Of a stretch of 37,171 bases of DNA, positions 3 through 37,171 are shown piece by piece. The stretch lies in the IMG/VR virus record IMGVR_UViG_3300025096_000058, positions 1-37,171 of that record, one strand, 5' to 3'. The notes beneath the pieces are model-generated. The model did no database searches and was not told the DNA's origin. It saw only the letters and a program-made list of their open reading frames with translations. The position numbers were made by a program, and so were the translations under genes. The stretch comes from a virus. Numbering within the stretch: position 1 is the stretch's first letter; each line of letters starts with the position of its first letter.

Positions 3-32
3 TGTGGTAACTGCAACTGTGGTGGTAGGTGA
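3..32 (+). CDS. 3' end of a Cys/Gly-rich mini-ORF, cut by the window start
   Basis: The frame reads CGNCNCGGR and then stops at TGA (30-32). It nearly matches the complete 11-residue mini-ORF MECCGNCNCGG at 36341-36376, so it is the end of the same short gene from a variant locus. Its stop overlaps the GTG start of the nuclease at 29. In the right-hand copy a 121-residue gene separates this peptide from the nuclease; here they touch. Function unknown. Confidence 0.5.
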   Translation, partial: CGNCNCGGR

Positions 33-376
33 AATACTATTATGCTGTAGATGTAATCAAGATAGTTGATGGAGATACAGTAGATGTACGAATTGATCTG
101 GGTTTTGATGTGTGGCATAAATGTCGTGTACGACTTATGGGTATCAATGCTCCTGAATCACGAACAAGAGATAAAGAGGAGAAGGTCAGAGGGTTGGCTG
201 CAAAGGAATGGTTAACTAAAGAATTCTATGATGCAGTAGATCCAATAGAGTTACAATCACACGGCAAAGGAAAGTTTGGAAGAATACTTGGAGAGTTCTT
301 TATCAATGGTGTAAACATAAATCAATCAATGATAGAGAATGGACACGCTGTGGAGTATTTCGGTGGCAAAAGGTAA
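29..376 (+). CDS. Staphylococcal-nuclease-like (thermonuclease family) endonuclease, left copy
   Basis: A 115-residue protein with the SNase pattern: DGDT at 14-17, the VRLMGINAPES segment at 34-44 and KFGR at 82-85. R35, E43 and R85 fall where the family has its catalytic Arg, Glu and Arg. The family cleaves DNA or RNA in a Ca-dependent way; in a phage it may degrade host DNA or act on packaging or recombination substrates, which is inference. No signal peptide is visible. The start is GTG, overlapping the preceding mini-ORF stop; the right copy (36742-37089) begins with ATG. The proteins differ at four positions (V9I, S100L, I102V, E103N). Its stop TAA overlaps the ATG of the next small ORF. 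This copy has the only two GATC sites I found in the window. Confidence 0.85.
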   Translation: MKYYYAVDVIKIVDGDTVDVRIDLGFDVWHKCRVRLMGINAPESRTRDKEEKVRGLAAKEWLTKEFYDAVDPIELQSHGKGKFGRILGEFFINGVNINQSMIENGHAVEYFGGKR

Positions 377-453
377 TGAGTTGTTATACATATAAACAAA
401 AAGATACAGGTACTTATGTTACAATATGTAACTGCAAGTATGGACATAGATAG
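376..453 (+). CDS. 25-residue Cys-containing peptide (CNC core)
   Basis: The ATG shares its A with the nuclease stop (TAATG), so translation is probably coupled. The peptide starts MSCYTYKQKD and ends TICNCKYGHR, giving Cys at 3, 18 and 20 and a His near the end. The same gene, base for base, follows the right nuclease copy (37089-37166), although the nuclease genes themselves have diverged, which argues for selection or recent exchange. The CNC core recalls the 11-residue peptide at 36341-36376. Metal binding is possible but unproven. No homologue recognised. Confidence 0.55.
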   Translation: MSCYTYKQKDTGTYVTICNCKYGHR

Positions 454-461
454 GAGATACA

Positions 462-1049
462 ATGAAACTACAAGTAGTAAGAACACAGTTCGGTAAGGAT
501 GCAACTAATGGTTTGTTATTTATTGATGGTGTGTTTGAGTGTTATACATTAGAGGACCAGTACCAAGCAGTAAAAGTAATGCACGAAACCTGCATACCTG
601 AAGGTACATACGATATAAAGTTTAGAAAGACTGGTGGATTCCACGCTAAGTATTCAGCTAGATATAAGAATGCACACTATGGTATGTTACATTTACAAGA
701 TGTACCTGGCTTTCAATACATACTTATACATACAGGTAATACAGATGAACATACATCAGGTTGCCTAATCTTAGGAGAAACACAACAAGACTTAGATATA
801 AACTTTAATGGTATGGTCGGAAGTTCAGCTGTAGCGTACAAGAAAATGTATGCGAAGGTAGCAAATCAATTACTACAAGGTAAGGAAGTTACCATAGAAT
901 ACAGCAAGATAGACTTAGGTGGTAAGGAATTAAGTAACACTGCTAGTCCAGATTTCATTAAACCTGATAGTGTTTATGAAAAACTCCAAGAGATAAGTGG
1001 GGAGATTCAAGTACTCTCTGCTAAACTTGATGGAAAGGACATTGTATAA
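462..1049 (+). CDS. DUF5675-family protein, probable lysis-associated enzyme
   Basis: A 195-residue protein whose first 110 residues resemble DUF5675, a family common in phages and prophages: an N-terminal beta strand (MKLQVVRTQF), a CYTLED segment near 27-32, CIPEGTYDIKF near 44-54, and an IHTGN...TSGCLILG signature with H90 and C101. The His...Gly-Cys arrangement recalls L,D-transpeptidase-like folds, but catalysis is inferred, not shown. The tail (about 150-195) looks helical. A good ribosome site (TAGGAGAT) sits 5-12 bases upstream of the ATG. The gene ends at the A of the holin ATG (TAATG), so the two are coupled, which supports a role in lysis. Confidence 0.65.
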   Translation: MKLQVVRTQFGKDATNGLLFIDGVFECYTLEDQYQAVKVMHETCIPEGTYDIKFRKTGGFHAKYSARYKNAHYGMLHLQDVPGFQYILIHTGNTDEHTSGCLILGETQQDLDINFNGMVGSSAVAYKKMYAKVANQLLQGKEVTIEYSKIDLGGKELSNTASPDFIKPDSVYEKLQEISGEIQVLSAKLDGKDIV

Positions 1050-1330
1050 TGTTTGAGAAACTAAGAAGAGCAAGAAACCAAGATGGTACATTTAAGAAAG
1101 ATGTTTGGTGGACACCTTGGTCTGATTCGTGGGAGTATACATTGAGCGAAGAGCTTAAAGATATGATTGAAAGAACTGCCTGGACCTTCATTGAAGCGTT
1201 CATTGGTGCATTAACAGTTGCACCTTTAGTAGGTATAGATGCTGGAGCACTCCAGTTAGCTGCACTTGCAGGTGGTGGTGCTGCATTAGCAGTCATCAAG
1301 ACATACGCAAAGAAACAAATATCTAAGTAA
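1049..1330 (+). CDS. Holin, r1t-like
   Basis: A 93-residue protein with a charged, Trp-rich N-terminus (RRARNQDGTF, WWTPWSDSW), then two hydrophobic segments at about 44-62 and 66-84, and a basic tail (KTYAKKQISK). This two-span layout and length match class II holins of the phage r1t type, common in phages of Gram-positive and actinobacterial hosts. It would form inner-membrane lesions that time lysis. It is coupled to the DUF5675 gene upstream and followed by a 51-base gap before the phosphoesterase ribosome site. No antiholin dual start is evident. Confidence 0.75.
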   Translation: MFEKLRRARNQDGTFKKDVWWTPWSDSWEYTLSEELKDMIERTAWTFIEAFIGALTVAPLVGIDAGALQLAALAGGGAALAVIKTYAKKQISK

Positions 1331-8762: not shown

Positions 8763-8792
8763 ATTAGACTACGCACCAGGTCAAAAGGTTAC
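8763..8792 (-). promoter_or_regulatory. Early promoter motif, copy B
   Basis: Minus strand: GTAACC (8792-8787), 17 bases, GTCTAA (8769-8764) plus T. An AAACTAT stretch flanks GTAACC as in copy D. It overlaps the stop codon of the kinase-like gene and points at the 8540-8728 gene. Confidence 0.6.
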
Positions 8793-9339
8793 ATAGTTTA
8801 TGAAATTTTATTCTCTTATATCCCTGGACTATTTTTGTATCTATGGATTCTTGGGACTTCAAAAATTCTATTGTCGCATGGGTCCCTTTATAGGCTCGGA
8901 CTACTTCACTAATCTTCATGCTTCTTTTGCTTTTACGATTCCTTATTCCAACATTCAAAACGCAATTAAGGATATCATTTTCAACAATTATGAATTTAAC
9001 TTCAAGCCCTGCAGCTTCAGCCATTGAAATTCTTTTGAGTACCTTGGTTAAATCCTTGCCGCGGTTATCAAATATGACCGACTCACAATTATATCTCTGC
9101 TTAAATCCTTCAGCATCTGCAAAATAGGACCCCAACAAATTGGCTGCTAATTGAGATGCTTCAGGGTGCAGGTTTGCATTAGTCTCTTTATTTAATGGCA
9201 TCTGCTTATTTAGTTGTAACTTAATTAAATCAGGGTCAATAATAAAAGCATTCATCTCTTTAGCCGCTTCATTACAGTGCCTAGATTTACCAGAACCAGA
9301 GGCTCCAATCATCATTGTTATAGTGTTTTTGTTTTCCAT
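8764..9339 (-). CDS. P-loop kinase-like protein (zeta-toxin / polynucleotide-kinase fold)
   Basis: 191 residues. A Walker A motif GASGSGKS lies at 12-19, directly after a hydrophobic strand (ITMMI). FIIDPDLI (about 32-39) and VIFDNRG (about 89-95) fit the substrate-site Asp and second Asp of the zeta-toxin/PNK group; KFIIVEND is a later strand. NRKSKRS may be part of an Arg/Lys lid. It would phosphorylate a nucleotide, nucleic-acid end or sugar; which one is unknown. It is the first gene of the leftward early operon. No ribosome site precedes ATG 9339; instead the promoter -10 box ends 4 bases upstream, so the mRNA is probably leaderless. Confidence 0.65.
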   Translation of the reverse strand: MENKNTITMMIGASGSGKSRHCNEAAKEMNAFIIDPDLIKLQLNKQMPLNKETNANLHPEASQLAANLLGSYFADAEGFKQRYNCESVIFDNRGKDLTKVLKRISMAEAAGLEVKFIIVENDILNCVLNVGIRNRKSKRSMKISEVVRAYKGTHATIEFLKSQESIDTKIVQGYKRIKFHKLCNLLTWCVV

Positions 9340-36122: not shown

Positions 36123-36341
36123 ATGAATGGAAATATCAAGATAAATCCAAGCCAGATATTACAAGGTGGATTAGCAGCCTTAGTTGCTTGGTTGTTTAGA
36201 ACTGTACAAACATTAACCAATGAAGTAGCAGTATTAAAAGCAGAAATTACAAATGCTAATGAAAGATTAGCCGAAGTGCTAACTGTTATCAGTGGAATAT
36301 CAGGAGAAATCACAGAAATAATATGGAAGATAGGTGGCTAA
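36123..36341 (+). CDS. Small membrane protein with a coiled coil (holin-like or lysis accessory), 72 residues
   Basis: A hydrophobic span ILQGGLAALVAWLFRTV (about 12-28) is followed by a coiled-coil helix (LTNEVAVLKAEITNANERLAEVL) and a short end (GEITEIIWKIGG). The layout resembles small holin/antiholin-like (XhlA-like, but reversed) or spanin-like proteins. TAATG joins it to the 11-residue mini-ORF. Confidence 0.55.
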   Translation: MNGNIKINPSQILQGGLAALVAWLFRTVQTLTNEVAVLKAEITNANERLAEVLTVISGISGEITEIIWKIGG

Positions 36342-36376
36342 TGGAATGTTGTGGAAACTGTAACTGCGGTGGCTAA
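36341..36376 (+). CDS. 11-residue Cys/Gly mini-ORF
   Basis: MECCGNCNCGG, with 4 Cys in 11 residues. Its ATG overlaps the upstream stop (TAATG) and its own TAA overlaps the ATG of the next gene (TAATG), so it is a complete translational link in the chain. A variant (CGNCNCGGR) is present at the left end of the window, next to the other nuclease copy. Its small size makes coding status uncertain, but the conserved Cys/Asn/Gly core and exact joints argue for it. Confidence 0.5.
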   Translation: MECCGNCNCGG

Positions 36377-36741
36377 TGAATAGTGTTAAAGATAATTTAA
36401 CTTTTGTAATTGCGATTGTTACTTTACTTGGATTTTTAGTAGGTGGAGCAAAAAATACTTTTGATTTAATTGATAAAGTAAATGGTTTAGACAAGTCATT
36501 AGCAGAACAAACAAGCTGGGTCCAATCCCATGTATTAAGTTTTGCTGGGCAATTAGATAAATACCAAATGCAAAATGAGGAAAATTTTGATGAGGTATAT
36601 TTGTTACTTGAAGAACAACAAATGCAGATTGATGAATTGAGAGAACTTGCAGAAGGAACTAACTACTGGGTTTACATGCTAGAAGAAAGATTATGTAGTA
36701 GCAATACTATTGCAAATAAAATAGGTGGTTGTGAGGATTAG
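36376..36741 (+). CDS. Membrane-anchored coiled-coil protein (spanin-like?), 121 residues
   Basis: An N-terminal membrane span FVIAIVTLLGFLVGGA (about 10-25) is followed by a long helix (DKVNGLDKSLAEQTSWVQSHV ... YLLLEEQQMQIDELRELAEG), like an i-spanin or a holin partner, and ends in a Cys-containing tail (RLCSSN...IGGCED). It is coupled to the mini-ORF upstream, and the nuclease ATG directly follows its TAG. At the left end of the window this gene is missing between mini-ORF and nuclease, so it may be an optional cassette. Confidence 0.55.
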   Translation: MNSVKDNLTFVIAIVTLLGFLVGGAKNTFDLIDKVNGLDKSLAEQTSWVQSHVLSFAGQLDKYQMQNEENFDEVYLLLEEQQMQIDELRELAEGTNYWVYMLEERLCSSNTIANKIGGCED

Positions 36742-37089
36742 ATGAAATACTATTATGCTGTAGATATAATCAAGATAGTTGATGGAGATACAGTAGATGT
36801 CAGAATTGATTTGGGTTTTGATGTGTGGCATAAATGTCGTGTACGACTTATGGGCATCAATGCTCCTGAATCACGAACAAGAGATAAAGAAGAGAAGGTC
36901 AGAGGGTTGGCTGCAAAGGAATGGTTAACTAAAGAGTTCTATGATGCAGTGGACCCAATAGAGTTACAATCACATGGCAAAGGAAAGTTTGGAAGAATAC
37001 TTGGAGAGTTCTTTATCAATGGTGTAAACATAAATCAGTTAATGGTTAACAATGGTCATGCGGTGGAGTATTTCGGTGGCAAAAGGTAA
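36742..37089 (+). CDS. Staphylococcal-nuclease-like endonuclease, right copy
   Basis: 115 residues with the same SNase motifs as the left copy (DGDT, R35, E43, R85), an ATG instead of GTG start, and four amino-acid changes. The two GATC sites of the left copy are changed here to GATTTG and GACCCA, both silent, and the GAATTC to GAGTTC. It starts immediately after the stop of the 121-residue gene and its TAA overlaps the next ATG. It is probably the genome's own copy, since it keeps the GATC-free pattern of the rest of the sequence. Confidence 0.85.
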   Translation: MKYYYAVDIIKIVDGDTVDVRIDLGFDVWHKCRVRLMGINAPESRTRDKEEKVRGLAAKEWLTKEFYDAVDPIELQSHGKGKFGRILGEFFINGVNINQLMVNNGHAVEYFGGKR

Positions 37090-37166
37090 TGAGTTGTTAT
37101 ACATATAAACAAAAAGATACAGGTACTTATGTTACAATATGTAACTGCAAGTATGGACATAGATAG
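37089..37166 (+). CDS. 25-residue Cys-containing peptide (second copy)
   Basis: Identical at DNA level to 376-453. Coupled to the nuclease by TAATG. The bases after it (GAGAT) are the start of the ribosome site of the DUF5675 gene, which in the circular map follows next (462 onward). Confidence 0.55.
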   Translation: MSCYTYKQKDTGTYVTICNCKYGHR

Positions 37167-37171
37167 GAGAT

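Follow-up and report, generated by a model that had tools for sequence, protein, structure and literature searches.

A gene for an 11-residue peptide with four cysteines belongs to an apparently interchangeable set of micropeptides in the lysis region of ocean phages

The copper-thionein of Neurospora crassa has 26 amino acids and seven cysteines, and peptides of that kind were once the shortest metallothioneins reported (PMC4755600). Mycobacterial polycysteine leader sORFs, which are short and rich in cysteine, lie within operons (Canestrari et al. 2020, as cited in PMC9094748). Papers on metallothionein in phage genomes were not found in the open-access literature that we searched. Gene callers usually apply length cut-offs that exclude genes of 11 to 13 codons. 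Here, we describe CysP, a gene of this size on which selection acts strongly at the protein level in dozens of ocean phage contigs.

The window, that is, the whole stretch of DNA analyzed, corresponds to a linear virus record from IMG/VR, 37,171 bases long, and both of its ends lie in a late, lysis-type region. The gene order is TMcc72, CysP, cc121, SNase, and P25 at the right end and CysP, SNase, P25, DUF5675, and holin at the left end (Table 1). The DUF5675 product scored 0.002 against Tlde1_dom, which is below the cut-off, and looks like a Cys enzyme of the L,D-transpeptidase type. The capsid protein is SU10-like, with approximately 45% identity to phages of Mycobacterium and Propionibacterium, the nearest terminases are those of Streptomyces phages, and the sole match in a search of cellular genomes was a phage contig binned with an Actinomycetota MAG; these matches make a marine actinobacterium a plausible but weakly supported host. 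A zeta-toxin/AAA kinase-like protein (PF06414, E = 5e-8) is encoded at positions 8764 to 9339 on the minus strand.

Table 1. Features at the two ends of the window, with the basis of each assignment
Feature	Coordinates	Strand	Basis
Second type A peptide, 3' part CGNCNCGGR* (3-32), start codon beyond contig edge	1..32	+	
SNase-like nuclease, left copy, GTG start	29..376	+	PF00565, E = 1.2e-11
P25, left copy, MSCYTYKQKDTGTYVTICNCKYGHR, identical to right copy	376..453	+	
DUF5675, L,D-transpeptidase/Tlde1-like, H...SGCL motif	462..1049	+	PF18925, E = 8e-30
Holin-like protein (holin93)	1049..1330	+	phrog_443 holin, E = 9e-6
TMcc72, 72 aa, one apparent membrane segment and coiled coil	36123..36341	+	read from sequence
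CysP ribosome-binding site AGGTGG, within the last TMcc72 codons (..IGG)	36332..36337	+	sequence
CysP, type A (CCxxCxC), MECCGNCNCGG, 11 aa, four Cys	36341..36376	+	ORF kept in relatives, pN/pS
cc121, membrane/coiled-coil protein	36376..36741	+	resembles 120-160-aa proteins 3' of the slot in relatives
SNase-like nuclease, right copy	36742..37089	+	PF00565, E = 1.7e-11
P25, right copy, Cys3His, MSCYTYKQKDTGTYVTICNCKYGHR	37089..37166	+	29-member alignment A2
Contig-end overlap, terminal 109 bases	37063..37171	.	exact match to 350-458

Diverged copies of one locus occupy positions 26 to 458 and 36739 to 37171, and the left and right SNase proteins are 96% identical. The contig ends look like an assembly overlap that joins two strain versions of this locus, one with cc121 and one without, and the record, although classed as linear, could represent an almost complete circular genome. 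Genuine tandem copies within a single genome would also place CysP, SNase, and P25 at both ends and could account for the 4% difference in SNase; this arrangement is rather unlikely, because two copies of SNase, CysP, or P25 were found in no relative examined, and the right end stops inside the 109-bp exact match in the manner of an assembly overlap. A sequence-only reading of the window had taken the base-for-base identity of the two P25 copies as special conservation, but this identity is part of the terminal overlap.

The micropeptides picked out in that reading (36341-36376, 3-32, 376-453, and 37089-37166) were all correctly placed when re-checked; near-identical DNA to that of the left-end type A peptide is present in L001 and L002. 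Its claim that all of them are joined to their neighbors by overlapping stop and start codons held for TMcc72/CysP (TAATG, 36339-36343), CysP/cc121 (TAATG, 36374-36378), left CysP/SNase (GTGA, 29-32), and SNase/P25 (TAATG in both copies), but cc121 and SNase abut without overlap (TAG-ATG), and P25 and DUF5675 are separated by an 8-nt gap bearing a GGAG-type ribosome site. Dinucleotide-shuffled windows contained tiny ATG ORFs with four cysteines at a mean of 0.68 and a maximum of 3 per window. Within the window alone, such an ORF is thus not beyond chance, and the decision rests on relatives, in most of which the AGGTGG-nTAATG junction recurs. Two other gene models were rejected: a longer CysP from 36323 (MEDRWLMECC..), whose upstream ATG is missing in many relatives, and a TMcc72-CysP fusion by ribosomal frameshift, for which no conserved slippery site was seen and the ATG beside the TMcc72 stop is general. 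Isolates yielded no relative of TMcc72 in 50,697 phage records, and the cc121 search returned two close relatives only.

A degenerate DNA pattern for CCGxCNC[G/E]G matched 70 IMG/VR stretches, in 62 of which it is exactly this ATG-start ORF of 11 to 13 codons, far more than chance would yield. Relatives show no stops or frameshifts in this frame, which stays open while the N-terminal length changes by whole codons (MD, MGD, and MGGD). To avoid circularity, relatives were re-sampled through TMcc72 and SNase with the peptide itself unused, which gave 81 distinct TMcc72 ends, the 3' end of TMcc72 defining the micropeptide slot. A tiny Cys-rich ORF occupies 66 of these 81 slots, with exactly four cysteines in 65 and five in one (L181); the relatives are metagenomic contigs, many of them partial, and members of one type, being related, are not independent observations. 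Type A (CCxxCxC) fills 29 slots, type B (CxxCxxxCxxC, MICGLCTGMCNTCPIGK) 19, type C (CCxxxCC, MDCCGNGCCGGK) 15, type D (CxCxxxCxC) one, and type E, which is P25-like, two. A Cys-free peptide, MIEFLVVMWLSVKKSKR (MIEFL), stands in a further 10; the next gene follows directly in three, where no Cys peptide was located, and two are empty. The type labels require the Cys pattern but concealed no tiny Cys-rich peptide in any slot.

In this unbiased set, in-frame pN/pS was 0.106 for type A (18 distinct cores), 0.089 for type B (8 cores), and 0.206 for type C (10 cores), compared with 0.54 to 3.8 in the other two frames, which shows purifying selection on the peptide. The cysteines are invariant while TGT and TGC codons alternate freely. 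These comparisons indicate that CysP is a real, conserved gene, as had been supposed, the ORF being kept in relatives under amino-acid selection, and that it is one member of a group of four-thiol micropeptides that can stand in for one another in the lysis region of many ocean phages; the family libraries searched had missed these tetracysteine micropeptides.

The contents of the slot are exchanged between phages. L188 and L194 carry the same TMcc protein followed by a type C peptide in one and by MIEFL in the other, which indicates exchange of the slot at the TAATG junction. Type A was also found 3' of a 60-aa membrane protein, holin-like proteins, other coiled-coil proteins, and the gene preceding a tail protein, and it lies among tail genes in L105 and L121. 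Both genomes with an empty TMcc slot carry a single type A gene approximately 10.9 kb away (5512 versus 16426 in G001; 13257 versus 2159 in G002). This relocation suggests that the CysP product probably acts in trans.

These observations bear on the proposal that the ORF acts only in cis, as a ribosome site or restart for the next gene or as a cysteine-responsive leader, with the peptide itself irrelevant. The TAATG overlaps and the AGGTGG/GGTGG sites are as such a role would have them, attenuator sORFs of the polycysteine kind have been described in Actinobacteria (as cited in PMC9094748), a phylum that may include the host. Selection, however, also keeps the non-Cys residues G and N at a pN/pS of about 0.1, the downstream gene varies (SNase, acidic protein, DUF5675, or tail gene), a folding signal was absent in 51 contexts (mean z of -0.13), no Rfam match was obtained, and the peptide is relocated in two genomes. 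We consider a purely cis-acting role very unlikely; selection on amino acids and relocation likewise disfavor translation coupling as the sole value of these peptides, which the sequence-only reading had offered as one option.

P25 had been grouped with CysP through a shared CNC core. The 29-member alignment of P25 (A2) has two invariant cysteines, and in relatives CNC becomes CTC, CNN, CNS, or CNY. Five of the six members that have N, S, or Y in place of the second Cys of CNC possess an additional N-terminal Cys, compared with 1 of the other 23 (Fisher p = 3e-4, uncorrected for relatedness, with about three lineages contributing), so that the ligand count is kept. Four Cys/His ligands are retained in 22 of the 29 members, and seven have only three clear ligands. 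Because CNC can be lost with a compensating Cys, the shared core points to similar design, not homology; the CysP set itself includes CCxxxCC and CxxCxxxCxxC types, and common ancestry through CNC was therefore rejected. By these comparisons, P25 is a family separate from CysP, although the CysP slot is filled by P25-like peptides in L169 and L283. A low-confidence AlphaFold model of P25 (pLDDT 68) predicts a β-hairpin with strands 12 to 16 and 23 to 27 that begin and end at the two invariant cysteines, and it would place C12 and C27 side by side. Searches of Pfam, PHROG, and PDB gave no convincing match to P25.

The tie between P25 and the nuclease that the sequence-only reading saw in the window is loosened by the relatives, where P25 usually lies directly 5' of DUF5675 and approximately 2.3 kb from SNase, with an acidic secreted protein and a 60-aa membrane protein in between. 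In L001 (5359-7443) and relatives, an acidic, Glu-rich protein of approximately 700 aa has an N-terminal signal-like segment and a Thr-rich linker; its length varies between phages, it is absent at both window ends, and it has no Pfam match. In the close relative L110 (6990-7080), SNase is cut short after approximately 27 residues, with a 6-Cys peptide and DUF5675 immediately 3' of it, an apparent recombination scar.

All 19 contigs with the Cys-free MIEFL peptide in the slot carry another cysteine-cluster protein close by, namely, a 60-aa HiPIP-like protein in 12 and a 6-Cys peptide such as MDTKCNCTILCCGCSLHCKNK in 7. The HiPIP-like protein matched PioC in PDB (E = 2.5e-6, four aligned Cys) and, below the cut-off, NCBIfam Iro (E = 7e-5); those of the MIEFL contigs are 98 to 100% identical to one another and thus represent roughly one event. 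Loci for HiPIP-like [4Fe-4S] proteins were seen at L194:4176-4358 and 23 further places on 12 contigs, in the late cassette of phages with a Cys-free slot peptide. Metallothionein-like 6-Cys micropeptides (CxCxxxCCxCxxxHC) occur in L110 (~7083, reverse-complement coordinate), L196 (3292), L185 (3238), and others, and that of L110 sits just 5' of DUF5675, the usual P25 position.

We regard it as moderately probable that CysP and its counterparts are trans-acting tetrathiolate micropeptides that hold a metal ion or cluster and are interchangeable across marine phages. Open frame, purifying selection, ligand number, swapping, and relocation come from sequence comparison; translation, metal binding, and trans action are what we infer. 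CysP would be a protein gene of 11 to 13 residues whose four cysteines are kept by selection, one of several interchangeable types in the late cassette (CCxxCxC, CxxCxxxCxxC, CCxxxCC, and CxCxxxCxC) beside the separate P25 family (Cys3His or Cys4). Its translation would use the ribosome site embedded in the upstream membrane/coiled-coil gene and a TAATG restart after that gene. In the reducing cytoplasm, the four thiolates of the product would coordinate either one metal ion or one cluster (Zn, Cu(I), Fe, or Fe-S), and during late infection the peptide may buffer or donate metal or act as a thiol shield. Copper reportedly inhibits L,D-transpeptidases (PMC8263019), and a speculative role would be the protection of the Cys enzyme DUF5675 from metal. 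Metal binding, already suggested in the sequence-only reading, is the best interpretation, since the number of four ligands is constant across changing spacings, P25 compensates for Cys loss, a secretion signal is absent, and HiPIP-like or 6-Cys proteins act as apparent replacements.

The four cysteines could instead serve redox chemistry or a partner protein, with metal-free peptides forming mixed disulfides with, or docking onto, membrane coiled-coil proteins or DUF5675. Such proteins are indeed the neighbors, DUF5675 with its H...SGCL motif among them, and CGxC within CCGxC resembles a redox motif. This alternative is nevertheless improbable: with no signal peptide, CysP would be expected in a reducing compartment, the number of cysteines is fixed at four although spacings differ by type, type A also lies among tail genes, and HiPIP-like or 6-Cys proteins are present where the Cys peptide is absent. 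The possible lysis link offered in the sequence-only reading is borne out insofar as the peptides lie in a lysis-type region, with DUF5675 and a holin nearby. Linkage to holin93 and DUF5675, together with the look of TMcc72 and cc121, which read as membrane segment plus coiled coil, would suit a spanin-like or holin-regulating complex of these two proteins with the micropeptides. CysP, however, lacks a hydrophobic segment, a signal, and a lipobox, and type A also occurs outside the lysis cassette, so that a role as lysis effectors is highly improbable. The metal-binding reading, if true, would suggest that control of a metal or thiol pool is a general need of these phages in late infection. 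More tentatively, these peptides may form an undescribed class of tetrathiol micropeptides, freely swapped or replaced by HiPIP-like or 6-Cys proteins, in which each phage would need one late trans-acting metal or Fe-S carrier and CysP-type genes would rank with the smallest conserved protein genes so far known from phages.

Compared with the described systems, CysP resembles the mycobacterial polycysteine sORFs, as cited, in being a short ORF rich in Cys codons upstream in an operon, possibly in phages of the same phylum. It differs from them in that its peptide sequence is selected, its contexts vary, and it is relocatable and free of an RNA structure signal; cis control of a fixed downstream operon was thus not borne out. 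The mark of two-component spanins and o-spanins, a signal peptide with lipobox, is absent from CysP and P25 as read from their sequences. HiPIP/PioC-type [4Fe-4S] proteins are represented by the 60-aa HiPIP-like protein of relatives without a Cys slot peptide, which is non-homologous to CysP and P25. Zinc ribbons and small Cys4 zinc fingers have four thiolate or Cys3His ligands; CysP has four thiols, P25 has four Cys/His ligands in 22 of 29 members and three in the other seven, and the predicted β-hairpin of P25 has its cysteines at the open end. Unlike those domains, CysP is too short for a ribbon fold, and P25 has no convincing profile or PDB match to a known zinc domain. The fungal copper-thioneins are, as CysP is, tiny, with cysteines in CxC and CC spaced by Gly, Asn, or Ser, and type A has no aromatic residues. 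A metallothionein-like Cys richness is present (four Cys per 11 to 13 residues, with CC and CNC), but homology to metallothioneins was not detectable, and length and Cys number are unlike those of the 26-aa, 7-Cys fungal array (PMC4755600). With four cysteines in 11 to 13 residues, CysP is about half the size of the fungal metallothioneins or less and is phage-encoded; were the metal reading true, few natural metal-binding gene products would be smaller.
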